NCBI GenBank assembly: GCA_009746045.1
Contig: RPFO01000156.1
Location: 4,720,091 to 4,784,090 of the forward strand
Source of the DNA: Mesostigma viride
Taxonomy: Eukaryota > Streptophyta > Mesostigmatophyceae > Mesostigmatales > Mesostigmataceae
Reading direction: 5' to 3'
DNA: 64,000 nt
Below the pieces are notes generated by a model. The model did not search any database, was not told the DNA's origin, and saw nothing but the letters and a program-made list of their open reading frames with translations. The position numbers and the translations under genes are program-made. Positions 23,970 to 52,274 of the stretch are shown piece by piece (within the stretch, counting starts at the first letter, position 1; every line of letters starts with the position of its first letter).

Positions 23970-23970
23970 A

Positions 23971-24922: not shown

Positions 24923-26996
24923 TAATTAATTAATTAATTAATTAATTAATTAATTAATTAATTAATTAATTAATTAATTAATTAATTAATTAATTATAAT
25001 TAGGAACATAACTCCGTTGGGAGTACATGTAGCACATATCCCTGAGAAGGGGCATATGGCTTTTAATACATTCTGGGCTACTTCCTGCAAGCTAGGGTGG
25101 GAATGTACATGTGTGGTGTAAGCTACCCTTGCTCTAGGTGCACTAGGGCACCTGCACCCTCATGATCTATCAAGCTATGCCCAGAGCTCTAAGGGGGAGC
25201 CTGTCATGTGGCCGGGGGAAGATCATCATGGCTATACAAGAGCTAGGGCATGGCTTCTCAACGTACAGAGAGCATCTCTCTGCATAGGCATAGCATGGCT
25301 AAATTCTTAATGCAACATCCATGGGGGTCCCATCATAGGCATGGCTTGGCTAAATTCTGAAGGCATCATCATCCATGGGGGCCATTATGGGCGCACATGC
25401 GCGTGGGCCACATGCTAGGCTAAGGCTGACTAATCTACACTACTGGTATATATTCCCTAGTCTGAGGTGGCAGGAGGTGCCTGCCAGGGCTTGTGGTCAA
25501 CATGGATGACCGCCCCCCTGCTGTATACCGGCTTCCCCCTTGCGCTCTGCCGGAGCTGAAGGTATAGGTCGGCCATAGCTCGCGTCGCCGCTGTTGCTGG
25601 GCCAGGGTCAAGTCGTCGTCCAGCGTGAAGCGAGTCTCCGAGCTAGCTTCTTGCGGCATATTATATTTAAGGAACGCCAGCTTGTCCGCCATGTACTTAA
25701 AGGTGAGGAGCACGGGTGCCGGGCCAGCCTTCCCCCGCGCGCGGGGGAGGCGGACAGCCGACATCCGCAGCTCACCAGTGAGTTGCATGGGGGCAAAAAT
25801 GCCGCGAGAAGGCTCGTGGAGGTCTCACCTGCCGGCTGGTCGAAGTGCTTGACGATGACATTGTGGCTGCGCTGATGTCGGCCTCCTCGCGAAGGTCGAG
25901 GGCTTGTTGCTTGAGTTGTGCCGCCGCCGATGGTGGAGGTGGTGGAGGTGGTGTGATGCTTAAGCAAGTCCGGCGCCCAGGTGCATGGTGGGAGCATCAC
26001 CAGCCGGGCCAGCAGGTGCCGGCTGGGCGGCAATGTCCTTCACCGCCTGGGCGGTGAGGCCGGCGGTAGTCATGCAAGCACTCAAGGGCGGTGGCGGTGG
26101 CTTGAAGGCGTTGGTCGAGGTCGAGGAGGAGCTGCAGGGCTTTGATGTCGGCAGTGGAGGCGGAAATGGCAGTGGAGGTGGAGGCGGCGGTGGTGGAGAG
26201 GTGAGGAAGTTCAGTAGCCAGCGTGCCCCCCATTGCTGCCACATTGGCGGCAAGGGGGGTCACGTGCTGCTGAAAGGCTTCCGTAAGGATGGAACGAAGG
26301 GTGGGGGCGGAGATGGATGGAGCCCAGATATCTCGCCGTCAGAGCGCTGGAGAAGGGAGTTGAGGATGGCATGTGCTGGAGGCAGGGGCGGGGGGATCCG
26401 AACTGATCATGCTGACGTTGTGCCGGCGGCTGCCGTCGGTGCAGAGGAGGCGATTGGTGTCGTGGAGACATTGGAGGCACAGACAGGTCGTAAAGCGAGG
26501 CGTAGTGCCCGTAGAAGATGCAGTGCATAGCATCGGCCGGAGAGATGTTGGTCCCGTCGTGATCATCGACCTGGAAAGGTTGGGGCCGAAAGCGCGGTTC
26601 CGAGGGGCGTGAAGACCCTCCTGTTTTGTCGGCTGAGCGGGTGCGTTTAGGGTCAGGCGATGCCGATCATTGGCGATGCAGTGAGCCCGGGAGGGTTTGG
26701 GGCGACCACCAGTGCGCGACTAGTGTCACCGCTGCCTGCCGGATCTGAGGGCGAAGCTGCAGCCTGAGCTGCAGACGTATTTTCATGGCTGAGCACATCT
26801 GCTAAACTGCGTTGCGTCGAGGAGCGTTTGCTCGTCATATATTGCGTAATAGATTCGGAAAATTCTATCAGCATGTGCGTCTTAGAAAGACGAAGCGATT
26901 GTGATATTCACAGCTGAGTTCGGGGCTCAAACGTGAAAGTTATGAGCTCCGCCGTCAGCCATGGCTACCTCGTGGCTCGTTAGTGAGCTATTTCAT
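24923..26996 (-). mobile_element. Complete ORF1-only retroelement (family A), 2,074 bp
   Basis: It is flanked by a perfect 13-bp target duplication TGTGTCGAGCTAT (24910-24922 and 26997-27009). Read on -, it has a 5' region (GAGCCACGAGGTAGCCATGG, GACGGCGGAGCTC), one ORF (26838 to 25456), a 3' UTR, the hairpin ACTCC-CAAC-GGAGT and an AATT tail (24923-24997). There is no reverse transcriptase or room for one. The 3' UTR starts right after the ORF1 stop, as in the copies at 38477 and 50265. Confidence 0.88.
25456..26838 (-). pseudogene. ORF1 of the family A element (L1-ORF1-like RNA-binding protein)
   Basis: It starts MTSKRSSTQRSLADVLSHEN and ends at TAG 25456-25458, about 460 codons. The order is a Pro/Ala/Ser-rich N-terminus with SGDTSRALVV, a middle block FYGHYASLYDL, a heptad-rich segment (TTTSTSTAISASTADIKALQ, DLDQRLQATATAL) and a C-terminal RRM/CTD-like block with VIVKHFDQPAGE, RLPRARGKAGPAPVLLTFK, YMADKLAFLK and FTLDDDLTLAQQQRRRELWP. 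The last pattern is what L1-type ORF1 proteins show. Several frameshifts break it, so this copy is dead. The role is inferred to be RNA chaperone/binding in a retrotransposition particle. Confidence 0.75.
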
Positions 26997-27259
26997 TGTG
27001 TCGAGCTATGGATGCCGAGAATGCTCATAACTTTTGACTCCGCCGGGCATTAAATTTGGTCGGGTTAATTGCAGTAGACTCGTCTTTTGATGACAAACAC
27101 GCTGATCTAATTTTTGGCAGCCATTGCCCAGGATTTTGCAAGCTATTGCCAGCGGGCTGCCCAGCAGATCTCGCTATTTTTCTGCACATCAGTATGGCGG
27201 CACCACGCACATGATCAGTGCACCCAGTGCGCCCCCTGCCATCGTCTAGGTGCTATTAA

Positions 27260-28510
27260 ACGTAGATATGGAGGTCCCCGCATCTTCTTCAGCTCCTGTC
27301 GCCGATTCTCTTGATGCCCACATCGCTGCAAACAAAGTCGCCAACGACATTGTCGCCGCCGAGAACGCCGCTCACAAGCGACCCAAGGCTTCGGAACCAG
27401 CTCCAATGGCGGCTGAATCCTCCTTGCCATACACCATCCCTGCATCCTTCTACATGCCAGGCCAGCGTTTGAGCCTGGTCGACATCGACGATACCTTACT
27501 CGCCTACAACGCCGCCGCTGTGATAAGCGTGCTAAAGCTCCGCAAGGAACACGACGCCCCGATTCGCAACCCTCGCAGCGGCCAGGTTATGGAGGCTGCT
27601 TCGGATGAATGGCCTTGATTGGGATGAGAAACACTGAGCGTCGGCTTGCCTGTCTTATTTCGTGCTGCCCTGCATGAACTCGTCGAGCTGCCGGCGCCGG
27701 CCATCGCCAGGCCAGCCCCCGCGACCGATGCTACTGTGCTGCTGCAGAGCCTCGCATAGTCTTTTACGACTGTGCTGGGCGACATCAAGGTCCTGGCGGA
27801 TCGAGGCGTCTGCAGCTACGACGGCAACACCGCTGCAGCATGGAGCTGAAGAAAGCCATGGCAACCCCCGCCATGCAAGACCACCACGTTCGCCGACGTC
27901 ACAGGCAAGAACTTGACCGCCATAGTTCAACAGGCGGGCAAGTCTGCCGCTACCGCCGCGGTATCACAGAATGCAGTGCAACAACGCCAACGCAATATAG
28001 TAATCAAGAACTTCCAGACAGGCGCGGATGCAAAAGCAAATGAGACAGCCAGCACTTGCCGAGGAGCTGTGCGGCCCAGCGTTTCTGGGTGTGATGCAGC
28101 TCCAGAACCGTGTTGACAGTCATTGAACGAGCCATTCGGCTGCCAGGCCCTACTATATGGGCCTGGTCGACCGTCGTCACCATGCATGGCATCCATGCAC
28201 GATAAACACCTCCTGCTGGGAGCACGTCGCCTGCTCCACCCCACCTGCTACAGCCTCGACGAGGACTACACGCCCGGCGGCCCAATTATACTGAAGGCGA
28301 GGAGCGCGGTGTGGAACAGCCCCAGCGTCCAGGCGGCAAGGGCGCACGAGACAAAGCCGTAAGCGCATTAAGATGCCTCTGCTTCAGGATGGCTCCTTTG
28401 CAGCTTTCTTTAACGGTGTTCAGATTAACACCCCGGGAGCAGAGTCTCGTGCGGTGTCTTTTAGTATATAGCAAGAAGGGTGCTGCCTCTGGTGGTGCCA
28501 GTGGGTAGAC
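27260..28510 (+). pseudogene. Degenerate ORF1 of a further family (D)
   Basis: The first frame (27250-27618) opens with MEVPASSSAPVADSLDAHIA and holds SLVDIDDTLLAYNAAAVISV. After frameshifts, 27885-28120 reads TFADVTGKNLTAIVQQAGKS and NIVIKNFQTGADAKANETA, which parallels the NVIVKNFDQPAGE--TTLL block of family A ORF1. The LINE-C tail at 28847 follows. It looks like the ORF1 of a related but distinct element with several frameshifts. Confidence 0.45.
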
Positions 28511-28846
28511 TGAACCTTCCTCGTCGGCTCGCGGCTAACACGCTTCGGAGACAGCCTCTAAACAGTCCCCCCCCCCGCTCCACTCCCCATGCCTCGACCT
28601 AGCAGTCGGGTGATAGACATGGCCGGTGGTGCCGGTATTTTGGGCTAGAACGTCATCTGTCAACTGTCACTGGATTCGTAAAACCCAACACGTGCTAGTA
28701 GGTTACCTACGCCTCGGCGTTGTGTAATCAGCCCCCCCCCGACTACCCCGAGCACGCACGCGGCAGGCTCGCATCCTACGCCTGCAAGACAAAATCAATT
28801 CGATGAAAAGCACTATTCCCTCCGTTTCCATTCCCTCCGTTCCATC

Positions 28847-29072
28847 CCCACCCCCAGGCTCACACGCCAGCCCCTGTGGGCAAGCCACCCCCCGCCCCCA
28901 AGAGGAAGGGGCGTTTTGCTGAGTAGTACGTGTAGTTAGGATTTTATAGACTAGATATATAGCTTAGAGTTAGGTTAGTTCGATTACGCGGCTTCCTCCA
29001 TGCACCCCCACCCACCCATGCATCAAGGAATATGTGCTGCATGATCTCCCCGGCGGAGGCATATTATAATTT
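28847..29072 (+). pseudogene. LINE-C ORF2 end and 3' UTR
   Basis: It reads AHTPAPVGKPPPAPKRKGRF, then a stop and the LINE-C 3' UTR with TAGTTCGATTACGCGGCTTC and a terminal CTCCCC-GGCGGAGG hairpin, ending TTATAATTT. The tail is interrupted here by the array 29073-31616 and resumes as AATTTAATTT at 31617. Confidence 0.8.
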
Positions 29073-31783: not shown

Positions 31784-31930
31784 ATCAAATTTAAAAAAAT
31801 TAAATTAAATTATAACATGACTCCGTTGGGAGATCATGTAGCGCATATATATTCCCTTGCTGGATGGATGGAGACCTGTGGGCAAAGCCGCGATTCAAAC
31901 CGAACTAATTGAACTCTAAGCTAATCTAAT

Positions 31931-33252
31931 CTAGAAAACCCTACCTATTCTACTCAGCACGCGCCCCTTCCTCTTGGGGGGAGGGGGCTTGCCCACAGGG
32001 GCTGGCGTATGACTCAGCCTGGACATTGGTCTTCCACCTCTTCTTGTCCTGCATAGCAGTCCAAGCAAGAGAGAGGGAGTGAATGCGATGTTCAAACGGG
32101 GCTGGGACCACTAGCTAGGTCGGCCAGCAACTGCTGTGGGTAGGTCATGACATGTTTGCCTACCTTCTCAGTTAGGTATGTCCTTAAGGGGCCAGGCCTG
32201 GCAGGTCAGGATATGCCGCCCTAGCTGACCAAGCCGCTGGGGGCCGGCCAGACCGAGGTCGGTATCTACCTGGCTGGTGTGAGCAAGATGTCCTACGAAT
32301 GCTATAGCCTACGCCGCTGTCTAATCTCGTCCGAAATGCAAGGCATGCCCTCAGGTACAAAGATTCTAAAGACCTATGCGTGGAAACACCCTACATTCAG
32401 GGCCTGACGGAGCATCCTGGTTACCGTGCCATCTAGCTTGGCGGCCAGCGTGTCCGTGAGCGTCCATGCCTCGGCGCCATTATAGGTGAGCACCGTGAGG
32501 ACCAGGACTTTGAAGAGCATGCGCTTGCGGAGCTCGCCGAGGGCCTTCGAGTGCCAGTAGGTTTTGAGCGAACAATGCCTAGCCCATGCCAGGCCGATGC
32601 GGGTGTCCACATCGTCGGCGGTGTCGGGGAGCATGCTCCCCTGGCAGCAGTTTGAAGCGATCACGAAACGGGACCTCCGTCCCGTCTAGCAGCCAGTGAC
32701 GGCACTTATTAAAGCGGCGGGCGACTGGAAGGTGCAATCATGCACCATCGCCTCAGTTTTGACACTAATCTCCAACCCCACCGCTCTCGCCTCCAAGCCC
32801 AGACAGTCCAGCCAGGTCTGAATGTGCTCGGGGCGCGCGATGAGGGTGGTGTCATCCGCATAAATCAAGTCGGACAGGCGGTATAGCCCGGTTCAACGCC
32901 GCCGTGTTCGCGCGCGTTAAGGATGTCCAAGCCGGGCTCGAACGAGCAGTAAAGCGCGCACGTGCCCGGCGCATGAGATGATCCACGACAATAATGAACA
33001 GATATGGGGACAGGACACAACCTTGCCACACCCCGTGGTGAAGGGGGAATGGTGGGGTGGTGCCTTCCGCAGTCCGCGGCACTATACTGCCTGTGAACCC
33101 TCATACAGTCGGCGAATGGCAGCAATAAACGCCGGTGGTACCCGATCCAGAGAGCTTAATCAGGATGGCCCAAAGAGCCTGAGTCCCAGCTGGAGGACCG
33201 TGTCAAAGGCCGCCTTGATATAGTCAACAAAAATGAAGACTAGCGGCAAACT
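31931..33252 (-). pseudogene. LINE-C ORF2, RT to C-terminus (decayed)
   Basis: Frames cover HHGVWQGCVLSPYLFIIVVD, LIYADDTTLIARPEHIQTWL, LEISVKTEAMV, WTLTDTLAAKLDGTVTRML and the PPPPKRKGRV end. RT motifs B and C (YADD) are present, but frame changes near 32640-32700, 32860 and elsewhere break it. The product would be the reverse transcriptase of a non-LTR element. Confidence 0.85.
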
Positions 33253-33263
33253 GTCAGGGCAAA

Positions 33264-35289
33264 TTAATTAATTAATTAATTAATTAATTAATTAATTAAT
33301 TAATTAATTAATAAACACGTGCTCCCGTTGGGGAGTCACGGAGCACCGAAGTGCTTTTAATCCCCGTGTGTGCACAAGGGCAGAGACCCCATTCTCCTTC
33401 ATGCCAAAGGCATGCCACAGCTGCACTCGGACACGCTAAACTGTGTGTAAACGATCCGGCAATCTGTGGGTGCAATAAGACCCATGTGAGCATGGCATAA
33501 CAAGGAGCGTGGGCAAGTAATCTGATCATATAGCCAGCCTGGACGTAGCATGGCTGTACATACAAGGACTAAGCTAAGGCTAAGGCTGGTTGTGTACCGT
33601 GGGCGTTAGCGGTGCACATGACTAGGTATGTTGGCACGTACAGCTAGGCAAACATTCTAAGCATGGCTGCCATAGCGGCAGTGACTACCAATGGATACAA
33701 GCTAGGGCTATTATGCAAGCTATTCTAGCCCGCTGGGGGCGTCCACATCTTGTGGTTGATCATCAGGTCCCCGCCCCTCCAGTACATACACCTTGGGCTT
33801 CTGGTGGGGGTCCTGCTTGTGGCGGAGGTATTCCGGCCACAGGTCGCGTCGAGTGCTGCTGCTGCTGAGCGGGCCGGGGTCAGGTCGTCGTCCAGCGTCC
33901 AGGTGAGGTCATGCAACCGCTTGCGACGAGAGAGGAACCGCTGCTTGTCCTCACGGGAGGGGAAGGTGTCTGAGCAGGACTGGTGGGGGAGCCGCCTTGT
34001 CCCGTGTCAGAGTGGGGAAGGCGGTGGCACCCTCGCAGTTCTACCTCACCTATTACCAGGCCCATGAGGGTAAGGAGCTGGTCCTTAAGCTCGTCGGCAA
34101 GGGAGGTTGACGTCTCACCTGGCTTCTGGGGGAAACGACGCAGCACCACCCGGCAGTCGTGGCGGGCGCGGTCGGTGGCCTCCCGTTGTTGTGCCTGGCG
34201 AAGGTCTTCAAGCTCCTGAAGTTTCGTAGCAATGGCGTCGGTGGTGGAGGCGGTCGCTGTCCGCAGCAGGTCCGCATAGGAGAGGGGCGGGAGGTCACCA
34301 GTGCTCATCCAGCCGGGGTGGCTGGGATGCGATCAGGTGGCAGTCTGCTCCGCGATCTTTGGGACCTGTGAGGCCAGGGCCTCAGTGTGGGCGGTGATGG
34401 CTTCAAGCTTCTTCATGAGCACGCCGCACTTGCCCTCCACCTGGTTTAGGCGAGAGACAAGTGCAGCGTGCGTCTCGGATGCCTGCGCCGCGGTAATTGT
34501 GGACGACTTTGGTTTCCACATTGGAGACCCGGGCCTCCACCGTGTTGAGCGTCGTGTTCAGCAAGGTCAGCTTCTCGGCCAACAGCCAGGTCACGTGCTC
34601 CTCCATCACTGCTCGGATGTCATCCTTGCAGAGGGAGGGAGCCGATGTGGCTGTCGGCCGCACAGGCTGGGCTGGGGTGCGGATCTTGGCGGCGATTTTG
34701 TCTATAGGTATAGCTGGAAGAAGCTGCACATGATAGCGAGGCGGTGGTCGTATTCTGGCAGGGTGAGGAACCTCTCCAGGCCGTCGGCGGAGATGGGCGC
34801 ATAGGGCCCATGGAGCATGCGTTCCTGTGCTAAGAAACGCACTATTTCGGCGCATTCTGCTTTGGTCAGTTGCATCTGGAATTTGCTGAAGGAAAAGCGG
34901 TCGTAATCTGGTACTAGGTACTGTCGATCGCCATTTGTGTTTGTGGCAGGGTTTCTTGAGCTCGGGCGACTGGCGCTGGGCGATGGGTTTGCTGGTGGTG
35001 GGTTGGCGGGCCCAGAAGGCTGGGCCAGGACAATGGCGATCGAGTGGGTTGGGCTGGGAGCCGGCATTGAAGCTCCTTTTCCAAACCTCGCTTGGCATTT
35101 GGAATCGTCATAGAGCTGCTTGTCATGTGCGTAATGTAACTTGTCAATACTGCGTTTTAGCCGTAACCGATTATACTGGCGGGTGCATCTTAAAAAGGCG
35201 CATCGAATGCAAGTGGTCTGACCGAATTTGGGGCTCAGACGCAAAAGATCTGAACTCCGCCGTCAGCCATACCCCCGTCAGCCATTTTC
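33264..35289 (-). mobile_element. Complete ORF1-only retroelement (family B), 2,026 bp
   Basis: It is inserted in LINE-C ORF2 with an 11-bp duplication GTCAGGGCAAA (33253-33263 and 35290-35300). On -: a 5' region with a duplicated ATGGCTGACGG motif shared with family A, ORF1 (35067 to 33725), a 3' UTR, the hairpin GTGACTCCC-CAAC-GGGAGCAC and an AATT tail (33264-33312). No ORF2 is present. The 3' UTR matches that at 16495-16796. Confidence 0.87.
33725..35067 (-). pseudogene. ORF1 of the family B element
   Basis: It starts MPAPSPTHSIAIVLAQPSGP. Then come YLVPDYDRFSFSKFQMQLTK, a coiled-coil stretch (LAEKLTLLNTTLNTVEARVS, THAALVSRLNQVEGKCGVLM, AITAHTEALASQVPKIAE) and a C-terminal block with CRVVLRRFPQKPGETSTSLA and HDLTWTLDDDLTPA. 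The architecture is coiled coil followed by an RRM-like/CTD block, as in L1-type ORF1. It is related to family A ORF1 at the C-terminus only. A few frameshifts interrupt it. Confidence 0.7.
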
Positions 35290-35300
35290 GTCAGGGCAAA

Positions 35301-36171
35301 GGCGACGCACCTCCTCCATCAACCGGCGCGCGACAAACACAGCCATGACAGTGTTGCGACCTTGACAGAAAACCATCTGATGACTCACCCAGGCGACATG
35401 GGTCCAGCGCGGCGCGGAGCCGGTGCAGCATCATGCGCATGAAGACCTTCAGCGCGGAGCTCTGGAGGCATGTAGACACCCCGATTGTTACCGGGGTCAC
35501 CTGCAGAGCCCTTCTTGTACAGCATGACTCGGATGGCCGTCTGCCACTCAGCAGGCGGAGGCTCATCAGAGAGCAGGACACGGTTGCAGAACGCCAGCAG
35601 AAGCTCCCTCACCGCCAGGTCAGGGGTCTTCAGCAGCTCAGCCGAAACTGTGGTCGGCACCGACCGCCGCGTCGTACCGCAGGCGAGCAAGGGCGCCGTC
35701 CAATTCCTTCAAAGTGAAGGGGTGGACGACGCCGTCGGTGGCAAGACAGCCCTCCTGCAAGGCGGGGACAGTCTTGGTAGTCCGCGGCCGAGGAGGGGGG
35801 CGCAGGCGGCGGGGGGGGGCCGGTAACACCGAGACGGGCGGCCGTCTCGGGATGACGCGGCGGGGGAGGGGCGCGAGCCGCACCTGTCAAGGAAACATTG
35901 TGGGCCAACCAGCGGTCAAGGCTGACGGGCGCCGTGCCGTCCCCCATGTGCTCCACTGGGGTGCGCTGCCGCCGGCCGGCCGCCAAGGGCTCCGGTCGAG
36001 GTGGTACCACATGTCCTTGCCCTGGTTGCGAGCTTGGCAGGCCTTGGCATCTGAGATGCACTGGGCCGCCTCTGCGTCCTGAGCATGCGCGTAGGCCTCC
36101 ACAAGGGCGGCCATGAGCACCGGTTTCAGCAACGGGTACCGGTTTCGCTTGAGGCGGTGCCGGGCGGCCAA
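35301..36171 (-). pseudogene. LINE-C ORF2, N-terminal part and RT start (decayed)
   Basis: Reads AALVEAYAHAQDAEAAQCIS, KACQARNQGKDMWYHLDR, a Pro-rich linker, FTLKELDGALARLRYDAAVG, then TPDLAVRELLLAFCNRVLLS and AIRVMLYKKGSAGDPGNNRG. It corresponds to 41740-42530 of the better copy. The linker to RT needs a frame change. The 5' end is lost at 36171. Confidence 0.8.
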
Positions 36172-36221: not shown

Positions 36222-37254
36222 AGTTATTATAAATAGTGACGGAACCTTTTTGCCACTTGGGCAATTAGGTCCGTCACTATTTATCCGGCGAAAACCACTC
36301 GCCGGCATCTATTCCGCGTTAAGTTCACGTGAACGTGGCGCGGAATTGATGCCGGCGAGTGGTTTTCGCCGGATAAATAGTGACGGACCTAATTGCCCAA
36401 GTGGCAAAAAGGTTCCGTCACTATTTATAATAACTAAAACGTCGTAGTGTGGGGGCCGATATCTATCGTACCGCTAATGCCTACTGCAGTACCGAATCTC
36501 GCCTTAACGATATTCCAACCGGGCATATTTTCCCTTCTGGCACTTTCGTTTGGCCTTCTGGTATCAATTCCTTCCGGTATTCGGAAATACCTGTGTCACC
36601 ACAGGGATTCGAACCCCCGACTTACGAGGTCTTAGTTATTATAAATAGTGACGGAACCTTTTTGCCACTTGGGCAATTAGGTCCGTCACTATTTATCCGG
36701 CGAAAACCACTCGCCGGCATCTATTCCGCGTTAAGTTCACGTTGGCGCGGAATCGATGCCGGCGAGTGGTTTTCGCCGGATAAATAGTGACGGACCTAAT
36801 TGCCCAAGTGGCAAAAAGGTTCCGTCACTATTTATAATAACTAAGACCTCGTAAGTCGGGGGTTCGAATCCCTGTGGTGACACAGGTATTTCCGAATACC
36901 GGAAGGAATTGATACCAGAAGGCCAAACGAAAGTGCCAGAAGGGAAAATATGCCCGGTTGGAATATCGTTAAGGCGAGATTCGGTACTGCAGTAGGCATT
37001 AGCGGTACGATAGATATCGGCCCCCACACTACGACGTTTTAGTTATTATAAATAGTGACGGAACCTTTTTGCCACTTGGGCAATTAGGTCCGTCACTATT
37101 TATCCGGCGAAAACCACTCGCCGGCATCTATTCCGCGCCACGTTCACGTGAACTTAACGCGGAATAGATGCCGGCGAGTGGTTTTCGCCGGATAAATAGT
37201 GACGGACCTAATTGCCCAAGTGGCAAAAAGGTTCCGTCACTATTTATAATAACT
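36222..37254. mobile_element. Nested fold-back element P-S-P-S'-P, 1,033 bp
   Basis: Three ~210-bp palindromic modules P (36222-36435, 36634-36842, 37041-37254) begin AGTTATTATAAATAGTGACG and end in the complement. They alternate with a 198-bp spacer S (36436-36633) and its exact inverse S' (36843-37040). The whole is therefore a palindrome centred near 36738. A 5-bp duplication CAGGT (36217-36221, 37255-37259) flanks it, inside a LINE 3' UTR. No protein-coding capacity; the TSD-TIR structure suggests a DNA-mediated MITE-like origin. Confidence 0.88.
36843..36890 (+). other. tRNA 3'-half-like segment with Pol III B box
   Basis: GGTTCGAATCC at 36861-36871 is a perfect B box/T-arm core, flanked by GACCTCGTAAGTC and CCTGTGGTGAC, which resemble the 3' half of a tRNA. 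The inverse copy is at 36605-36615. No matching 5' half or D-arm exists, so this is not a functional tRNA gene. Confidence 0.4.
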
Positions 37255-38040
37255 CAGGTGGGGGAATGTAAACTGCCACAGCTACTCTGGGTGCACAAAG
37301 GGCACCGGCACCACCATGATCTATCAGAGCACAAAGGGGGCCCGTCATGGGGTGGAAGATCAGCCGCATGGCTGTATGTACAGGAGCTAGGGCATGGCTT
37401 CTCAGCAGAGAGTAGCTCTCTGCGTGGGCACAGCATAACTAAATAAATCAAGCTAGGCATCATCTGGTGTGTGGCGCATCATGGGCACACATGTACATGA
37501 CTAGATAATGTTCATGAGCCAGCTGGAATAGTGCCTGTAGTAGGCGTGCATGTACAAGGCCACGGTCTAACTATTCTACACGACTACTGCTGTATTCCCC
37601 TAAGCTGGGGCGTCTAGCTGGAGTCGCTGGGGCCGTGGTGATCGCGGGGGTCGCGTGCCAGGGCTTGTGGCCGACGTAGATGGCCGCCCCCTTCCAGTAC
37701 ACCGGCTTCCCCGCCGCGGTCTGCCGAAGCTGGAGGTAGGTCGGCCATAGCTCCCGTTGCCGGTGTTGCTGCGCCAGGGTCAAGTCATCGTCCAGGGTGA
37801 AGGGAGTCTTCTCGAGCCGCTTGCGGCGTCTGAGAAAAGAAATCTTGTCCGCCGGGTTCTTAAAGGTGAGAAGAAGCGGGGGCGCCCCTCCCTTACCCCG
37901 CGCGCGGGGAAGGCGGTGGGCGACCAGCTCATCTCACCAGTAAGGCCCATGCGACCAAGGATTTCTCTCTCAAACGCACGTTCAAGCTTCTCGGAATTCT
38001 CACCTTCCACCAGGTCGAAGTTCTTGACGAAGGGGCATAT

Positions 38041-38476: not shown

Positions 38477-40464
38477 ATAATTCATTAATTAATTAGAAAC
38501 ATAACTCCGTTGGGAGTACATGTAGCACATATCCCTGAGAAGGGGCATATGGCTTTTAATACATTCTGGGCTACTTCCTGCAAGGGTGGGAATGTAGGCT
38601 ACCCTTGATCTAGGTGCACCAGGGCACCTGCACCCTCATAATCTTCACACTATGCCCAGCTAAGGGGGAGTATGTTATGTGGGGGAAGATCATCATGTCT
38701 ATACAAGAGCTAGGATATGGCTTCTCGACAGAGAGCATCTCTCTGCATAGGCATAGCATGGCTAAATTCTTAGTGCAACATCCATGGGGGTCCCGTTATA
38801 GACATGGCGTGGCTAAATTCTTAAATGCATCATCCATGGCCATTATGGGCGCACATGCGCTGGGGCCGCGTGGTAGGCTAGCCTTAAATCTACACTACTG
38901 CTATATTCCCTGGACTGGGGGTGCCTGCCAAGGCTTGTGGTCGACGTGGATGACGTCCCCCCTCCAGTATACCGGTTTCCCCCCTGCGCTTTGCCGTATC
39001 TGGAGGTAGGTCGGCCATAGCTCGCGTCTCCGTTGTTGCTGGGCCAGCGTCAGGTCGTCGTCCAACGTGAAGTGAGTCCTCGAGAGCTTCTTGCGGTTTT
39101 TATAAGAAACAACACCTTGTCCGCCATGTACTTAAAGGTGAGGAGCACGGGTGCCGGGCCAGCCTTGTAAACCCCGCGCGCGGGGGAGGCGAACAGCCGA
39201 CATGCGCAGCTCACCAGTAATGTGCATGCATGGGGGCAAGAATGTCGCGCTTAAATGCCGTAAGAAGAGTCGTCGAGTCCTCACCTGCCGGCTGGTCGAA
39301 GTTCTTGACTATGACGTTGTGGCTGCGCTGGGTGCGGTCGGCCTCCTCGCGGAGGTCGAGGGCTTGTTGCTTGAGTTGTGCCGCGATGGTGGAGGTGGTG
39401 GAGGTGGCGTGGTGCTTAAGCAAGTCCGCCCAGGTGGAGGGAGCATCACCGGCCGGGCCAGCAGGTGCCGGCTTGGTGGCGATGTCCCTCACCGCCTGGG
39501 CGGTGATGCCGGCGGTGTTCTGCATGCACTCGATGGCTATGGCGGTGTCCTTTAGGCGTTGGTCGATGTCGAGAAGCTGGGCCTTGAGGGTGGCGGTGGA
39601 GGTGGAGGTGGCAGTGGAGTTGGAGGCGAGGAGGGTGGAGGTGGAGGTGACGGTGGTGGAAATGTGAGGGAGCTCAGCAGCCAGCGTGCCGCCCATTGCC
39701 GCCACATCTGTGGCAAGGGGCTCACGTGCTGCTCGAAAGCTTCCGTAAGGAGGGTGCGGACGATGGCTTCGGTCGCGACGGTTGGAGGGGGGGCCCAGAT
39801 CTCGGCGTCGGAACGCCCGAGGAGGGAGCAGAGGGCGAAGCGCTGGAGCTGGGGGCGTTTCATGCGCAGAATGATATTAATGTCATCGGTGGTGCCAGGT
39901 TGGCCGTTGGGCCAGCGGCCCCTGTTGTGGGTGATGAGGTGCAAGCACAGGTCTACAAGCGAGGCGTGCGTGCCGAAAAACATGTCTTCCATAAAGGCTC
40001 CCGGGGTTCTAGTCCAGAAGCCAGGTGCGTTGATGTCGAAGGCGATCTCGTTCCAGTGCGGCTCGGCAGGGCGACTGCGCTTAGGTTCAGGCGATGCAGA
40101 TGGCGAGGCAAGCCCGGGTGGGGGCTGGGCAACCACCAGTGCGCGACTAGTGTCACCGCTACCTTCCGGACCTGAGGGCGAAGCTGCAGCCGGAGCTGCA
40201 GACGTATTTTCATTGCTTAACGCATTCGTCAGGCTGCGTTGCGTCGAGGCGCGTTTGTTCGCCATAATAGCAGTTCGCGTAATAGCTGCAGGCTGGTCAC
40301 AATACTGCGTTACAGCTGTAACCGTTGATAGTAGCAGATGCGCCTAGAAAAGATGCATCGGTTGCAAGTGATCTGACGGAATTTGGGGCTCAGACGCAAA
40401 AGTTCTGAGCTCCGCCGTCAGCCATGGCTACCTCGTGGCTCGTGGCTCGGGCATGGTGTTTGGG
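38477..40464 (-). mobile_element. Complete ORF1-only retroelement (family A), 1,988 bp
   Basis: Flanked by the 10-bp duplication TCATGAAGTA (38467-38476, 40465-40474). On -: the shared 5' region, ORF1 (40265 to 38901), a 3' UTR, hairpin ACTCC-CAAC-GGAGT, and TATGTTTC followed by a short AATT tail. There is no ORF2. Confidence 0.88.
38901..40265 (-). pseudogene. ORF1 of the family A element (best N-terminal copy)
   Basis: It starts MANKRASTQRSLTNALSNEN. The N-terminal ~235 codons are open to about 39555 and include SGDTSRALVVAQPPPG, DMFFGTHASLVDLCLHLITH and SDAEIWAPPPTVATEAIV. A one-base shift near 39703 moves to the frame AAMGGTLAAELPHISTT, a heptad-rich stretch (LKAQLLDIDQRLKDTAIAIE), then NVIVKNFDQPAGEDSTTLLT. 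Another shift near 39200 leads to the C-terminal FTLDDDLTLAQQQRRRELWP block, ending at TAG 38901-38903. About 450 codons: an L1-ORF1-like RNA-binding protein, recently disabled. Confidence 0.78.
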
Positions 40465-41128: not shown

Positions 41129-41140
41129 ATGGTTCCTGGC

Positions 41141-41676
41141 TTAAGCAGCACACCACCTCCACCACCTCCACCACCTCCACCACCTCCACCACCTCCACCA
41201 TCTCGGCACAACTCAAGCAACAAGCCCTCGACCTTCGCGAGGAAGCCGACATCGCCCGGCGCAGCCACAATGTCATCGTCAAGCACTTCGACCAGCAGGC
41301 AGGTGAGACCTCCACGAGCCTTCTTGAGGCATTTAAGCGCGCCATTCTTGCCCCCATGTTACTCACTGGTGAGCTGGACATGTCGGCTGTCCGCCTCCCC
41401 CGCGCGCGGGGGAAGGCTGGCCCGGCACCCGTGCTCCTCACCTTTAAGTACATGGCGGACAAGCTGGCGTTCCTTAAATGCCACAAGAAGCTCTCGGAGA
41501 CTCGCTTCACGCTGGACGACGACTTGACCCTGGCCCAGCAACAGCGGCGACGCGAGCTATGGCCGACCTACCTTCAGCTCCGGCAGAGCGCAAGGGGGAA
41601 GCCGGTATACTGGAGGGGGGCGGTCATCCACGTTGACCACAAGCCCTGGCAGCCCCCTCCTGCCACCTCAGACTAG
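41141..41676 (+). pseudogene. ORF1 C-terminal half (family A), open frame
   Basis: One uninterrupted frame of about 175 codons covers a Thr/Ser repeat, ISAQLKQQALDLREEADIAR, HNVIVKHFDQQAGETSTSLL, MSAVRLPRARGKAGPAPVLL, TFKYMADKLAFLK and FTLDDDLTLAQQQRRRELWP, ending at TAG 41674-41676. This is the best-preserved copy of the conserved C-terminal domain. N-terminal half absent by 5' truncation. Confidence 0.8.
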
Positions 41677-41719
41677 GAATATATACCAGTAGTGTAGATT
41701 AGTAAGGCTTAGCCTAGCA

Positions 41720-43793
41720 AGCGTAACCGGGACCCGCTGCAGAAACCACTGCTCAAGGCCGCCCTTGTGGAGGCCTACGAGCATGCTCAGGACGCGGAGG
41801 CGGCCCAGTGCATCGCGGATGCCAAGGCCTGCCAGGCTCGCAACCAGGGCAAGGACATGTGGTACCACCTCGACCGGCTCGGCGGCCGGCGGCAGCGCAC
41901 CCCGGTGGAGCACACGGGGGACGGCACGGCGCCGGTAAGCCTTGACCGCTGGTTGGCCCACAATGTTTCCTTGACCGGTGGGGCTCGCGCCCCCCCCCCG
42001 CCGCTTCACCCCGAGACGGCCGCCCGCCTCGGGGTCGCCGGACCCCCGCCGCCGCCAGCGCCCCCCTCCTCGGCCGCGGACTACCAAGTCCCCGCCTTGA
42101 AGGAGGGCTGCCTTGCCACCAACGACGTCGTCCACCCCTTCACTTTGGAGGAATTGGACGGCGCCCTTGCTCGCCTGCGGTACGATGCGGCGGTCGGGCC
42201 GACCACCTTTCTGCTGAGCTGCTGAAGACCCCTGATCTGGCGGTTAGGGATCTTCTGCTGGCGTTCTGCAACCGTGTCCTGCTCTCTGACGAGCCTCCGC
42301 CTGCTGAGTGGCAGACGGCCATCCGCGTCATGCTGTACAAGAAGGGCTCTGCTGCTGACCCCGGTAACTACCGGGGTGTCTGCCTCCAGAGCGCCGCGCT
42401 GAAGGTCTTCATGCGCATGATGCTGCACAGGCTCCGCGCCGCGCTGGACCCACACCTGGGTGAGTCTCAGATGGGTTTCCGTAGTGGTCGTAACACTGTC
42501 ATGGCTGTGTTTGTCGCGCGCCGGTTGATGGAGGAGGTGCGTCGCCTTCCCCCTGACAGTTTGCCGCTGGTCCTCATTTTTGTTGACTATATCAAGGCCT
42601 TTGACACGGTCCTCTGGGAGGCTCTTTGGGCCATCCTAGCTCTGGACCGCGTGCCACCAGCGTTTATTGCTGCCATTCGCCGACTGTATGAGGGCTCACA
42701 GGCAGTAGTGCGGACTGCGGAAGGCACCACCCCACCATTCCCCCTTCACCACGGGGTGTGGCAAGGTTGTGTCCTGTCTCCATACCTGTTCATTATTGTC
42801 GTGGACCACGTCATGCGCCAGGCACGTGCGCGCTTTACTGCTCTTAAGGGGTTCGAGCCAGGCTTGGACATCCTTAACGAGCGTGGGCACGGCGGGGTTA
42901 GCACGGGTTACCGCCTGGCTGACCTGATTTACGCGGACGACACCACCCTCATCGCGCGCCCCGAGCACATTCAGACCTGGCTGGACTGTCTGGGCCTGGA
43001 GGCGAGGGCGGTGGGGTTGGAGATTAGTGTCAAAACTGAGGCGATGGTGATTGGGGCCTCCAGTCGCCCACCGCTGCCGCGCCTGCTAGACGGGACGGAG
43101 GTCCCACTCCGCGACCGCTTCAAGCTGTTGGGGAGTTGGCTTCCGGACACTGCCGACGATGTGGACACCCGCATCGGCCTTTCCTGGGCCAAGCTCCGTT
43201 CGCTCAACACCTACTGGCGCTCCAAGGGCCTGGACGAGCACCGCAAGCGCATGCTCTTCAAGGTCCTCGTCCTCACGGTGCTCACGTATGGCGCCGAGGC
43301 ATGGACACTCACGGCAACACTGGCAGCCAAGCTAGACGGCACGGTAACCCGGATGCTCCGACAGGTCCTGAATGTCGGGTTTTCTCAGCGTAGGTCCTTA
43401 GAGTCTTTGTATCACGGTATGCCGCGTATTTCGGACGAGATTAGACAGCGTAGGATAGCATTTGTAGGACATCTTGCTCGCACCAGCCAGGTCGACACCG
43501 CCCTTGGTCTGGCCGGTCCCCAGCGGCTCGGCCAACCGGGGCGGCACATTTTGACCTGGCCTGGCCCCAAGAACATTCCTAAAAAGGTAGGGAAACATGC
43601 CATGACCTATACCCAGATGTTGCTGGACGACCTAGTGGTCCCAGCCCAGTTTGAGTACCGCATCCACTCTCTCTCCCGTCTTTGGACTGCCATGCAGGAC
43701 AAGGAGCGGTGGAAGAAGATTGTCAAGGCACACACGCCCGACCCTGTGGGCAAGCCACCTCCCCCCAAGCGGAGGAGGCGTTTTGATGAGTAG
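41720..43793 (+). pseudogene. LINE-C ORF2: reverse transcriptase, one frameshift from open
   Basis: Codes for about 690 residues. The N-part (41720-42200) has KAALVEAYEHAQDAEAAQCI, WYHLDR, a Pro-rich linker and FTLEELDGALARLRYDAAVG. A missing base near 42198 (GGGCC where GGGGCC is expected) shifts to the frame 42228-43793. RT motifs are NYRGVCLQS, QMGFRSGRNT, LIFVDYIKAFDTV (motif A), GVWQGCVLSPYLFIIVVD (B) and LIYADDTTLIA (C, YADD). FKLLGSWLPDTADDVDTRI and LTYGAEAWTL follow, then a C-terminal RRIAFVGHLARTSQVDTA, and the end is PPPPKRRRRFDE. The endonuclease domain is lost with the 5' end, so its type is unseen. The clade is RTE/L1-like but not resolved. Confidence 0.93.
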
Positions 43794-43874
43794 TGTAGTT
43801 AGGCTTTTCTAGATAGAGTTAGGATAGTTCGATCACGCGGCTTCCTCCACCCCATCCATCATGAAATATGTGCT

Positions 43875-43899
43875 ACATGACCTCCCCACGGAGGCATGT
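43875..43899 (+). promoter_or_regulatory. LINE-C 3'-terminal stem-loop
   Basis: Stem ACATG-(A)-CCTCC pairs with GGAGG-CATGT around the loop CCAC, with one bulged A, 2-3 bases before the AATTT tail. The same design closes families A, B and E. By analogy with known LINE 3' stem-loops it would be the RNA structure the reverse transcriptase recognises. Confidence 0.65.
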
Positions 43900-44029
43900 T
43901 ATAATTTAATTTAATTTAATTTAGCCTAGCATGTGGCCCACGCGCATGTGCGCCCATAATGGCCCCCATTGATGATGCCTTTAGCATTCAGGCACGCCCT
44001 GCCTATAATGGTACCACCATGGATGTCGC

Positions 44030-44140
44030 CTAGAATGTATTAAGTAGCCTAGAATGTATTAAAAGCCATATGCCCCTTCTCAGGGCTATGTGCTACATCT
44101 ACTCCCAACGGAGTGATGTTGATAATTAATTAATTAATTA
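44030..44140 (+). mobile_element. 111-bp A-family 3'-end insertion
   Basis: Only the last ~90 bp of the 3' UTR plus an AATT tail, flanked by the 11-bp duplication ATGGATGTCGC (44019-44029, 44141-44151). An extreme 5' truncation, inserted into another A-family 3' UTR. Confidence 0.85.
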
Positions 44141-44574
44141 ATGGATGTCGCATTAAGAATTTAGCCATGCTATGCCATGCAGAGCGATGCTCTCTGTCGA
44201 GAAGCCATGTCCTAGCTCTTGTATAGACATGATGATCTTCCCCCACATAACATACTCCCCCTTAGCTGGGCATAGTGTGAAGATTATGAGGGTGCAGGTG
44301 CCCTGGTGCACCTAGAGCAAGGGTCGCTTACATTCCCACCCTTGCAGGAAGTAGCCTAGAATGTATTAAAAGCCATATGCCCCTTCTCAGGGATATGTGC
44401 TACATTGACTCCCAACGGAGTGATGTTCCTAATTAATTAATTAATTAATGGTTCCTGGCCGGGGGTCTCCACTCCAACAGGGTCTAAATTATTTCATGAA
44501 GTATATTAAAATCAGTACTATACCCAATTGATCAATCATATGACTTAGGTAGGTACAAGCCACTGACCATAAAC

Positions 44575-44692
44575 AAGTCGTCATCGCAATCCTAAAACTT
44601 TGCCTTCATTTTGGGTCGCAAACTATAAATTTCACCTTGTTTTGGGGTCGCAAAGTAGTTTGTTGCAAAGCGATTTTGACCACTACGGTAAT
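44575..44692 (-). repeat. Right TIR-like end of a TA-flanked element
   Basis: Read on -, TACCGTAGTGGTCAAAATCG, then CTTTGCAACAAACTACTTTG and CGACCC repeats. It is inverted relative to 38268-38370 and followed by TA. Confidence 0.45.
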
Positions 44693-47642: not shown

Positions 47643-47693
47643 GTAGAAAAGGATAAAAATGAGTTTGGGAAACTCATTTTTATCCTTTTCTAC
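47643..47693. repeat. Perfect 24-bp hairpin, GGG loop
   Basis: Arms GTAGAAAAGGATAAAAATGA + GTTT (47643-47666) and exact complement (47670-47693). No mismatch. No T-run terminator context; function unknown. Confidence 0.95.
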
Positions 47694-48540: not shown

Positions 48541-49180
48541 ATAATTAATTTTACACTCGTGCTCCCGTTGGGGAGTCACGGAGCATTGACCCCGGTGGGT
48601 GGATGGATGGATGGATGGGTACACGCAATCCTACCGGTCTAAGCTATCTACAATCTATCTACAAAAAATGAGCTACCATTAATTAATTAATTAATTAATT
48701 AATTAATTAATTAATTAATTAAGAACATAGATCGCGTTTTCCACGTTTTCCGCGGCCCGGCACTGAACGCAAAGGTTTTCACCTTTGCGGAGTGCCTGAT
48801 CAGAATAGCTCCGTGGGGAGCATATGTAACACATAGCCCTGAGAAGCTAGGGGCATCTATCGGTTTATAATACAATCTGGGCTACAACGTCCAGGTGGAG
48901 GATGTAAACTGTCACCTGCTCGGGGCCAGTGCACAATGTGCACCTGCACCACAATGATGGATCATACATCCCGATCATGCTTGCACGGGGCGACATGGGG
49001 AGATGGCCTATAAGAAGGCCTGCATGACATATATTCATTAACCCATAAGAATGATAAAGTACGGTGGTGAGATTGGCATGCAACACAAGGAAAACCCCGA
49101 AAAGAAGAAGAACCCTGAAGAAATAGTAATCTGACACGGACATCCAAGCCATCACGCCAGCTGCACAAGGGTATGACATA
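48541..49180 (-). mobile_element. B-type remnant, (AATT)n and E-family 3' UTR
   Basis: At 48551-48590 on - lies the B hairpin (CTCCGTGACTCCCCAACGGG). An AATT tract follows (48679-48721), then E-family 3' DNA. It has the hairpin GCTCC-CCAC-GGAGC near 48790, GGCTATGTGTTACATATGC, and CACCTGCACC on the - strand. A 60-bp stretch (about 48725-48785) with the near-palindrome AAAGGTTTTCACCTTT separates the hairpin from the tail. Confidence 0.65.
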
Positions 49181-49182
49181 TA

Positions 49183-49338
49183 TGGGGTGCAGCAGGGCTA
49201 TTAGGTTCCTCCCGTTAGGCGTTTCCATTGGTCTTATGGTAGTATAGAGCTTTGACATGGCTCTGTATATAGGTTTATAGCTGGGCGTTTGCTTTGGTTT
49301 GAGTGATTTCACTCTGCTGTAAGTAATTATATTTTTCA
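49183..49338 (+). mobile_element. R-element 3' UTR copy (R3)
   Basis: GCAGCAGGGCTATTAGGTTC through CTGCTGTAAGTAATTATATT matches the 3' UTR of the RLE-type elements at 54490-54640. Placed in an ACATATAT site. Confidence 0.85.
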
Positions 49339-49346
49339 CATATATT

Positions 49347-49590
49347 AAAAATATAATTACTTACAGCAGAGTGAAATCACTCAAACCAAAGCAAACGCCC
49401 AGCTATAAACCTATGTACAGAGCCATGTCAAAGCTCTATACTACGATAAGACCAATGGAAACGCCTAACGGGAGGAACCTAATAGCCCTGCTGCACCGCA
49501 AAATCAGCCCGCGTACGGCGGAGCATGATGTCAGCCATGGCCCGAGTCAGCGCCACCGACAAGCGCTGACGCCAATATGACGTCCATTTT
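49347..49590 (-). mobile_element. R-element 3' end copy in inverse orientation (R4)
   Basis: On - it holds the last ~25 codons of the RLE-type ORF (LTRAMADIMLRRTRADF) and the whole 3' UTR. It faces R3 tail to tail, so 49183-49496 forms an almost perfect 150-bp inverted repeat with a small AT-rich loop. Confidence 0.85.
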
Positions 49591-49651
49591 TTCACATATA
49601 TGGGGTGGAAGATGTATATGGCTAGGCTAGAGCTGGGCATGGCATCTCCGG

Positions 49652-50097
49652 TTGGTTTGCACATTAGTAATGAGGATTTGTACGCTGATTTGCCCTATGT
49701 TTCCCACATTATTAGGCACAGGCGCCTGGGCCTAGCCGGGCACCTGGCCCGCACAGATCAGGTAGATACATCAGATAGACTAGCTGGCACCAAGCCCGCC
49801 CAGCCTGGGCGATATGTCCTCACCTGGCGTGCCCCCGGCCGCGCGCGGCAGGGACGCCACCCGTGGACTTTTCGTGATAGACTCGGCATGGACATGTGCT
49901 ACACTAGACGTGACGGGCTCACCCCCGGGCAGCCTCCTGGTTTGTCTGTAACATGGAGGCAGATGGTGCGCAAGGATAGATGGCAAGTAGTGATGAAGGA
50001 GACCACCCCCAAGCCTGTGGGGGCTCCGCGTGTGACCAAGTATGGCATTCATAGCGATTCGGGCCGCGGTGCCCACACCCCTGTAACTAGGACCTAG
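49652..50097 (+). pseudogene. F-family LINE ORF2 C-terminus
   Basis: An open frame to TAG 50095-50097 with RHRRLGLAGHLARTDQVDTS, QPGRYVLTWRAPGRARQGRH and KDRWQVVMKETTPKPVG. The GHLARTDQVDT and R-KRW-----P-PVG blocks align to the C-terminus of LINE-C ORF2. 5'-truncated; the remaining frame has no stop. Confidence 0.8.
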
Positions 50098-50185
50098 ATA
50101 GCTATACCATCCATTCCATCCCATGTTCCCCTCCCACTGAGGACTTATGCTCACGTGACGCAGTCACGTGTCTATTTATTAATTA
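49652..50185 (+). mobile_element. F-family LINE, 5'-truncated, 534 bp
   Basis: Flanked by the 13-bp duplication ATGGCATCTCCGG (49639-49651, 50186-50198) inside an A-family 3' UTR. ORF2 C-terminus is followed by a short 3' UTR, a perfect TCACGTGAC/GTCACGTG hairpin and TATTTATTAATTA. Confidence 0.85.
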
Positions 50186-50264
50186 ATGGCATCTCCGGCA
50201 GCAGAGAGGAGCTCTCTGCATAGGTGAGGCTTGGCTAAATTCTTAATGCATCATCCATGGGAGT

Positions 50265-52274
50265 ACGTCCTCTGTAGCACATAGTATCTGTAGTAGCACG
50301 TATGCTCCCCACGAGCCACGAGCCACGCGGTAGCCATGGCTGTCGGAGCTCATAACTTTCATGTTTGAGCACCGAATTTAGCCGTGAATATCACTATCGC
50401 TTCGTCTTTCTAAGACGCACAAGCTGATAGAATTTTCCGAATCTAAAACGCAAGATATGACGAGCAAACGCCTGTCGACGCAACGCAGTTTGGCGGATGC
50501 GCTCGCCCGGCCATGAAAATGCGGCAGCTGCGGCTGCAGCTTTGCCAGCTCCGGCAGGCAGCGGTGACACTAGTCGTGCACTGGTGGTCGCCCAGCAACC
50601 TCCCGGGCTTAATGCCTCGCCATCGGCATCGCCTGACCCTAAACGCGCCCGCTCAGCCGATAAAACAGGAGGGTCTTCACGCCCCTCGGAACCGCGCTGT
50701 CGGCCGGCTCCAACCTTTCCAGGTCGATGATCACGACTGGACCAACATGTCTCCGGCCGATGCTCTGCACTGCATCTTCTTCGGGGACTACGCCTCGCTT
50801 TACGACCTGTGCCTCCATCTCCACGACAACAATCGCCTCCTCCTCCCGGACGGCCGCCGATGGAACGACATCCGCCTGCTGTTCGGGTGCCCCCGCCCGG
50901 CGGCCCAACTCCAGCTAGCACACCATCCTCAACTCCCTTCTCCAGCGCTCTGACGGCGAGATCTGGCTGGGCTCCATCCATCTCCGCCCCCACCCTCCGC
51001 TTCCTCCTCACGAAAGCCTTTCAGCAGCCTGTGACCCCCCTTGCTGCCGACGTAGCAGCAATTGGTGGCACGCTGACTGCTGAACTTCCTCACATTTCCA
51101 CCGCCGTCGCCTCCACCTCCACTGCCATTTCCGCCTCCACTGCCGACATCCAAGCCCAGCTCCTCGACCTCGACCAACGCCTTCAAGCCACCGCCACCGC
51201 CCTTGAGAGCTTGCATGACACCGCCGGCCTCACCGCCCAGGCGGTGAAGGACATCGCCGCCCAGCCGGCGCCTGCTGGCCCGGCCGGCGATGCTCCCTCC
51301 ACCTGGGCGGAGCATCACACCACCTCCACCACCTCCACCATCACGGCACAACTCAAGCAACAACAAGCCCTCGACCTTCGCGAGGAAGCCGACATCGCCA
51401 AGTGCAGCCACAATGTCATCGTCAAGCACTTCGACCAGCCGGCAGGTGAGACCTACACGAGCCTTCTTGAGGCATTTAAGTGCGACATTCTTGCCCCCAT
51501 GCTACTCTGACACTGGTGAGCTGGACATAATATGTCGGCTAGCTGTCCGCCTCCCCCGCGCGCGGGGGAAGGCTGGCCCGGCACCCGTGCTCCTCACCTT
51601 TAAGTACATGGCGGACATTGAAGCTGGCGTTCCTTAAATGCCGCAAGAAGCTCTCGAGGACTCGCTTCACGCTGGACGACGACTTGACCCTGGCCCAGCA
51701 ACAGCGGCGACGGGAGCTATGGCCGACCTACCTTCAGCTCCGGCAGAGCGCAGGGAGGAAGCCGGTATACTGGAGGGGGGCGGTCATCCACGTTGACCAC
51801 AAGCCCTGGCAGCCCCCTCCTGCCACCTCAGACTAGGAATCCATACCAGTAGTGTAGATTAGTCAGGCTTGGCCTAGCATGTGGCCCACGCGCATGTGCG
51901 CCCATAATGGCCCCCATGGATGTTGCCTTCAGAATTTAGCCAAGCCATGCCTATAATGGGACCCCCATGGATGTTGCATTAAGAATTTAGCCATGCTATG
52001 CCTAGGCAAAGAGACGCTCTCTGTTGAGAAGCCATGCCCTAGCTCTTGTATAGCCATGATGATCCTCCCCTGTGCCGGAATCCCCTTAGTTGGGTTGAAC
52101 CCGAGACAGCATGGTGGTGCCGGTGCCCTTGAGGCACCTAGAGCAAGTGTTGCTTACATTCCACTCTTGCAGGAAGTAGCCCAGAATGTATTAAAAGCCA
52201 TATGCCCCTTCTCCGGGATATGTGCTATACATGTACTCCCAACGAAGTGATGTTCCTAATTAATTAATTAATTA
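50265..52274 (+). mobile_element. Complete ORF1-only retroelement (family A), 2,010 bp
   Basis: Flanked by the 8-bp duplication ATGGGAGT (50257-50264, 52275-52282). It has the 5' region with GAGCCACGAGCCACGCGGTA, ORF1 (50459-51836), a 3' UTR, hairpin ACTCC-CAAC-GAAGT and an AATT tail. It is inserted into an A-family 3' UTR of opposite orientation. Confidence 0.86.
50459..51836 (+). pseudogene. ORF1 of the family A element (multiple frameshifts)
   Basis: Starts MTSKRLSTQRSLADAL and stops at TAG 51834-51836. Recognisable blocks in shifting frames are SGDTSRALVVAQQPPGLNAS, FGDYASLYDLCLHLHDNNRL, LAADVAAIGGTLTAELPHIS, LLDLDQRLQATATALESLHD, NVIVKHFDQPAGETYTSLLE and FTLDDDLTLAQQQRRRELWP. At least five indels. 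Same architecture as 38901-40265. Confidence 0.75.

Follow-up and report, generated by a model that had tools for sequence, protein, structure and literature searches.

Can a lineage of non-long-terminal-repeat (non-LTR) retrotransposons persist with a first open reading frame (ORF1) as its only gene, and whose reverse transcriptase (RT) would then copy it? The question is raised by a 64,000-nucleotide stretch of the genome of Mesostigma viride (contig RPFO01000156.1, positions 4,720,091 to 4,784,090; hereafter the window), an alga of the earliest-diverging streptophyte clade according to PMC7027972. The window holds four insertions, E1 to E4, that resemble long interspersed nuclear elements (LINEs) and in which ORF1 is followed directly by the 3' untranslated region (UTR). 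They probably belong to an old, non-autonomous, ORF1-only LINE lineage that is mobilised in trans by an RT-encoding LINE (RT-LINE) with the same terminal hairpin.

Four insertions with one plan and broken ORF1s

The coordinates, lengths and perfect target-site duplications (TSDs) that an initial annotation had given for E1 to E4 were confirmed base by base (Table 1). Simple arithmetic puts the probability that even an 8-bp TSD arises at fixed ends by chance at roughly 1 in 65,000. All four also have the proposed order of 5' region, ORF1, 3' UTR, hairpin and (AATT)n tail, and no RT match lies between ORF1 and the 3' UTR in any of them. Describing the elements as complete is wrong for coding capacity, because every ORF1 is frameshifted: the first stop after the ATG falls at 61 (E1), 70 (E2), 237 (E3) and 19 (E4) codons, and in each copy the match to Mesostigma gene models changes reading frame two or more times. 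E1 to E4 are insertions with the full structural plan but dead ORF1s.

The proposed division into two ORF1 families with a shared plan also held. E1, E3 and E4 form one family (A), with nucleotide identities of 80-85% over the main stretches (72% for the 5' part of E1 against E3). E2 belongs to a second family (B), and its ORF1 protein is only 33-39% identical to the family-A ORF1 of a further copy, F, whose ORF1 part has 90-93% DNA identity to E1 and E4. Despite this protein divergence, a 126-bp 5' region common to E2 (35270-35145) and E3 (40425-40300) is 83% identical, possibly an exchanged promoter module. E1 and E3 carry the exact sequence GCCATGGCTGACGG, of which E2 and E4 have variants. 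The 5' end of E4 extends about 32-37 bp beyond those of E3 and E1, and its additional bases (50265-50300) include the reverse complement of the 3'-terminal motif TATGTGCTAC, perhaps through a 5' inversion or a template switch at insertion.

Target-primed reverse transcription typically leaves TSDs, simple-repeat tails and 5'-truncated copies, and all three features (with TSDs of 8-14 bp) were seen in both ORF1-only and RT-LINE copies. TSDs were found for E1 to E4, the F-host copy, the RT-LINE copy RT_F, E2b, 52405-52755 and 49652-50185; F-host, E2b and the last two are 5'-truncated. In five cases (H1, I9634, J24714, K24522 and RT_G in H2) a convincing TSD was not found. Elements of both kinds are non-LTR retrotransposon copies.

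An ORF2-less junction shared by diverged subfamilies

Beyond E1 to E4, the members in the window are F-host, H1, H2, K55 and several 3'-end fragments. ORF2 is absent between ORF1 and the 3' UTR in seven of the eight ORF1 loci, and the eighth, K55, breaks off at a different repeat. F-host enters this count only once a TSD-flanked RT insert is set aside. The initial annotation had held that an ORF2 at this position would speak against its reading. The sole apparent case in the window is F (41141-44447), which has an ORF1, an RT ORF and the same 3' UTR; we rejected it as an ORF1+ORF2 parent, since its RT part is an RT-LINE nested within an ORF1-only copy and has a hairpin, a tail and a 10-bp TSD of its own. 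The F-host 3' UTR (43921-44447) contains two consecutive hairpin-plus-(AATT)n ends (44102, 44409), as if one 3' end had been duplicated or inserted within another.

Two further candidates were discarded. For K55 as an ORF1+ORF2 copy, the sequence after ORF1 proved to be a tandemly duplicated repeat of about 980 bp, and blastx against the RT homologues P0001-P0034, and possibly also against the proteins P0035-P0081, gave no match there. This unit lies in direct tandem at 53662-55629 (copies 98.8% identical), with pieces also at 49183-49586. At 14912-16797, which might have been a family-B copy with an ORF2, the 3' UTR belongs to a 5'-truncated insert with its own 8-bp TSD beside a (CATC)n array.

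H1 and H2 represent subfamily C. Their ORF1 parts have 73% and 67% protein identity to F and by eye resemble the many gene models that share about 60% identity with F. The alignment of E1 with H1 runs unbroken from ORF1 across the stop into the 3' UTR (71% identity over 691 columns, with 94 gap positions and no gap longer than 13 in the part displayed); a junction alignment was also made with six copies. The ORF2-less junction is common to subfamilies A and C, whose ORF1 proteins are about 60-73% identical, and the ORF1-only LINE-like lineage in the window seems to be old.

An autonomous L1-type LINE with ORF1, ORF2 and the same 3' UTR could lie elsewhere in the genome, and the ORF1-only copies would then be its deletion derivatives, perhaps formed repeatedly, as in a strict counterpart of mammalian HAL1. 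The window spans only 64 kb, the predicted ORF1 fold is L1 ORF1p-like (see below), and several independent origins are reported for mammalian HAL1s (PMC5753468). We nevertheless consider this origin unlikely, if worth serious weighing. The eight ORF1 loci, one of them uninformative, include no ORF1+ORF2 copy, and no full-length parent was found within the window. Because A and C share one alignable junction, repeated independent deletions would have had to strike the same place. Moreover, the similarity between the ORF1-only copies and the RT-LINE of the window is confined to the last ~57 bp and does not cover the rest of the 3' UTR.

An RT-LINE with the same terminal hairpin

The RT-LINE is represented by RT_F, inserted in F-host, and by RT_G, into which E2 is nested. 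Over 67% of its length, the RT_F protein has 98% identity to the M. viride gene model P0001, and Mesvir1 models make up 8 of the 34 matches listed; scoring in the protein searches with RT and with ORF1 was limited to the 8,000 candidates with most words in common. A scan of prokaryote genome contigs and viral contigs returned no relatives. By sequence, the top PDB matches were 8gh6 (E 3e-11), a 'reverse transcriptase-like protein' that we take to be R2, followed by R2 (E 2e-8) and L1 ORF2p (E 3e-8). These matches do not settle the clade, and an RTE-like affinity is a tentative impression.

No endonuclease domain matched in the 1,094 six-frame ORFs of at least 35 aa from the window, among which RT was found as a positive control. 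P0082, a metagenomic relative (40% identical) encoded on a contig of 3,380 bp, has 1,058 aa with the endonuclease ahead of the RT, so the RT-LINE copies in the window may simply lack their 5' part. Homology between RT_F (41719) and RT_G (36150) begins at the same codon, where RT_F is truncated, and RT_G runs by eye at most ~30 bp beyond it. The coincidence may reflect chance, a truncation hotspot or a point near the real 5' end. The 5' flank of RT_G resembles the H2 3' UTR by eye, with no clear TSD found. A relic of another RT-LINE subfamily (22816-24025) is followed by a long (TACT)n array that may be its expanded tail.

The terminal hairpin has a 10-bp stem with one bulged base. It was evaluated in 12 sequences (10 ORF1-family ends and 2 RT-LINE ends) from 18 listed ends. 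Left out were J24714 (37 bases identical to I9634), RT_28856 and RT_31763 (altered stem or loop), E2 and E2b (whose stem is similar but longer, CTCCC-CAAC-GGGAG in E2) and RT_50028. In this set 93.3% of the cells pair and 7 cells are changed on both sides; each of these values, like the covariation score, was reached by 1 of 500 shuffles. RNAalifold returned the same bulged structure. A 3' stem-loop is thus shared as in a stringent-type LINE/SINE pair. In zebrafish LINEs, the region between endonuclease and RT is described as binding its cognate stem-loop strictly (PMC4176376). By analogy with these LINEs, the shared hairpin makes the RT-LINE a likely donor of RT to the ORF1-only elements.

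The same observations could be read as a split, bipartite LINE: an L1-ORF1p-only family and an RT family that never had an ORF1 would depend on each other, as partners rather than parasite and host, through the common 3' hairpin. The window does contain ORF1 without RT and RT without its own ORF1, with the hairpin and the range of TSDs in common, and the endonuclease-RT relative P0082 points weakly in the same direction. We give this arrangement a slim chance. RT_F starts within ORF2, and the start of RT_G nearly coincides with it, so that an upstream ORF1 could have gone with the 5' end.

Predicted ORF1 fold and selection

In a search with an ORF1 fragment, Mesvir1 models account for 45 of the 47 matches listed; Mesostigma has homologous gene models of 240-321 aa. 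The predicted fold resembles human L1 ORF1p, with a coiled coil followed by an RNA recognition motif (RRM). After the RRM, a helix (209-227) and two strands (234-237 and 240-243) are predicted, but the predicted local distance difference test score (pLDDT) is below 50 for nearly all residues from 221 on. The protein is accordingly modelled as L1-ORF1p-like, with an uncertain C-terminal domain. Pfam had no L1 ORF1 family for the ORF1 query, nor did one appear in the families that it lists for 26 aligned members. PDB gave no sequence match, whether searched with the one query or with a profile, and an NCBIfam search with ORF1 found nothing.

To follow the suggestion that ORF1 be checked for purifying selection, we computed ratios of nonsynonymous to synonymous substitution rates (dN/dS) among the window copies, with the first 25 codons and K55 excluded and indel codons masked. 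The ratios among F, E1 and E4 were 0.82, 1.12 and 0.96. Those of E3 against F, E1 and E4 were 0.30-0.39 (upper bootstrap limits 0.62-0.72), and those between family A and subfamily C 0.30-0.53 (upper limits 0.59-0.81). H1 against H2 gave 0.72 with a wide interval (0.22-3.11). For comparison, three pieces of RT_F and RT_G gave 0.18 (the largest piece), 0.77 (75 codons, 0.26-3.25) and 0.29. An initial run, which included the repeat-rich, poorly aligned N-terminal codons and K55, showed the same pattern; K55 (54 codons) had 0.11-0.24 against family A and 0.43-0.47 against H1 and H2.

These ratios indicate that ORF1 has been under purifying selection between subfamilies and has changed almost neutrally among young copies, as when source copies are selected and their insertions decay neutrally. 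Within the limits of the window, the proposed checks for an ORF2 and for selection on ORF1 thus both speak for an ORF1-only family. Since A and C share the ORF2-less junction, part of this selection most likely acted when ORF2 was already gone. The idea that the elements arose by chance as processed copies of a single LINE or host transcript, with an unselected ORF1 and no lineage of their own, could draw on the broken ORF1s of E1 to E4 and the near-unity dN/dS of young copies, but is hardly credible given the same plan in families A, B and C, the 5' region common to A and B, which both end in a hairpin and an AATT tail, the ratios well below 1 between subfamilies and the many homologous gene models.

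A probable trans-mobilised lineage and the points against it

In the trans-mobilisation that we favour, an ORF1-only element would be transcribed from its conserved 5' region and would encode the L1-ORF1p-like protein with its predicted coiled coil and RRM. Its RNA would be copied by target-primed reverse transcription, with the enzyme provided in trans by the RT-LINE, which presumably recognises the same bulged 3'-terminal hairpin. ORF1p would coat its own RNA in cis and help it to compete for the borrowed RT, the most likely reason for the retention of ORF1, and single insertions would decay neutrally afterwards.

Several observations weigh against this account. ORF1 is broken in all four of E1 to E4, and no intact ORF1 was found in these copies. 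The dN/dS sample is small, consisting of few and related sequences, and part of the selection could go back to an ancestor that still had ORF2; beyond the 64-kb window, a parent with ORF1, ORF2 and the same 3' UTR may exist. The putative partner is seen only in part, both larger RT-LINE copies being without a detectable endonuclease region. Within the hairpin, 8 of the 120 cells are unpaired, including RT_G at one pair; 200 of 500 shuffles attain the 2 pairs with a double change seen here, and 35 of 500 attain the observed number of further pair types. The related relic at 49652-50185 (RT_50028) ends in a different hairpin, which speaks against one hairpin common to all RT relatives.

Other features of the window

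A perfect inverted repeat at 36222-37254, composed of smaller palindromic units (509-bp arms, 100% complementary, 15-bp spacer), abuts the cut 3' UTR end of H2 and may be a foldback element or an assembly artefact. Very long arrays occur at 15300-16494 ((CATC)n, 1.2 kb, 100% match), 59466-60193 ((TGT)n, 0.7 kb) and 5473-6785 (adjoining (TCGG), (GTCC) and (TTCC)). No Rfam family matched at its gathering score in the whole window; at a loose threshold, two weak matches far below that score fell on the 5' end of E3.

Table 1. Retrotransposon copies in the window (positions counted from its first nucleotide)
Feature	Positions	Strand	TSD	Description
E1	24923..26996	-	13 bp, perfect, TGTGTCGAGCTAT	Family A, 2,074 bp; frameshifted ORF1 at element positions 159-1540, then 3' UTR, hairpin, (AATT)n tail
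E2	33264..35289	-	11 bp, perfect, GTCAGGGCAAA	Family B, 2,026 bp; nested inside RT_G; frameshifted ORF1 at element positions 164-1565
E3	38477..40464	-	10 bp, perfect, TCATGAAGTA	Family A, 1,988 bp; longest open ORF1 piece among E1-E4 (237 codons)
E4	50265..52274	+	8 bp, perfect, ATGGGAGT	Family A, 2,010 bp
F-host	41141..44447	+	12 bp, ATGGTTCCTGGC, at 41129-41140 and 44448-44459	5'-truncated family-A ORF1-only copy; split by RT_F
H1	10025..10684	-	not found	Subfamily C; C-terminal ORF1 part directly into 3' UTR, hairpin, (AATTC)n tail; no ORF2
H2	37263..38028	-		Subfamily C; ORF1 38028-37637, 3' UTR 37444-37263, no ORF2 between; downstream end cut by palindromic insert
K55	55654..55835	-		ORF1 C-terminal fragment; unrelated repeat cuts in just after ORF1; uninformative on ORF2
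E2b	16505..16795	+	8 bp	5'-truncated family-B copy, 3' UTR only
3' end of ORF1 family	52405..52755	+	14 bp	5'-truncated; hairpin GCTCC/GGAGC
RT_F	41719..43920	+	10 bp, TTAGCCTAGC, at 41709-41718 and 43921-43930	2.2-kb RT-LINE ~40 bp past the F-host ORF1 stop; ends in a hairpin and (AATTT)n tail of its own
RT ORF of RT_F	42330..43793	+		487 aa; PF00078, E 1e-23
RT_G	31797..36150	-		Second RT-LINE copy, split by E2; two parts 91% and 81% identical to RT_F; 3' hairpin of the same kind
Related RT-LINE relic	49652..50185	+	13 bp	5'-truncated; RT C-terminus, 3' UTR, TTATTAATTAAT tail; different terminal hairpin

Known systems and significance

ORF1-only non-LTR elements are a known kind, which includes HAL1, TRE5-A.2 and HeT-A. 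HAL1, to which the initial annotation had compared the elements, is described as derived from L1, encoding only ORF1p and being non-autonomous (PMC5753468). The likeness stands for an ORF1p, in the alga predicted to be L1-type, as the only product, the absence of ORF2 and the non-autonomous state. HAL1 stems from L1, whereas the alga elements have no visible parent, and the sole RT-LINE found shares only the terminal hairpin with them; the hosts belong to different kingdoms, and the tail is (AATT)n in the alga and poly(A) in HAL1.

HAL1 is also not the sole analogue. TRE5-A.2 of Dictyostelium discoideum keeps ORF1, lacks the whole of ORF2 and is trans-mobilised by the ORF2 protein of another element (PMC5391098, PMC5633606), and it provides a precedent in a protist. 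Similar activity is ascribed to TRE5-A.1 and TRE5-A.2 (PMC5391098), and the accounts in PMC5391098 and PMC5633606 present the TRE5-A ORF1 protein as without similarity to other non-LTR ORF1 proteins. Both systems have an ORF1 without ORF2 in a protist, and trans-mobilisation would be a further likeness. Unlike the alga elements, TRE5-A.2 derives from the full-length TRE5-A.1 and targets tRNA genes; the window holds no full-length relative, a tRNA scan of it found none, and the alga ORF1 protein is predicted to be L1-like.

HeT-A encodes Gag only, is specific to telomeres and is not known to have TSDs. At Drosophila telomeres it relies on the RTs of other elements, with TART and TAHRE as the likely source (PMC6114517). 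The alga elements would share this dependence on a foreign RT, but their insertions have TSDs. Short interspersed nuclear elements (SINEs) of stringent-type LINEs (UnaL2/ZfL2 class) likewise have a 3'-terminal stem-loop in common with an RT-encoding LINE; SINEs are not known to code for protein, whereas the alga elements carry an ORF1 apparently under purifying selection.

A literature search for ORF1-only or ORF2-lacking non-LTR elements as such returned nothing beyond human or mammalian work, and the available parts of the two Mesostigma genome papers do not describe ORF1-only elements. What seems to differ here is that no parent is visible, that the plan is common to diverged subfamilies with a selected ORF1, and that, as in SINE-LINE pairs, the similarity to the probable RT donor is confined to the terminal hairpin. 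ORF1-only elements raise the question of why an element that parasitises a foreign RT keeps ORF1 at all, and the ORF1 described here is apparently selected across subfamilies that share an ORF2-less junction. If this holds genome-wide, ORF1p and RT would be naturally separated in Mesostigma, and the role of ORF1p in cis could be tested on an RNA that lacks ORF2.

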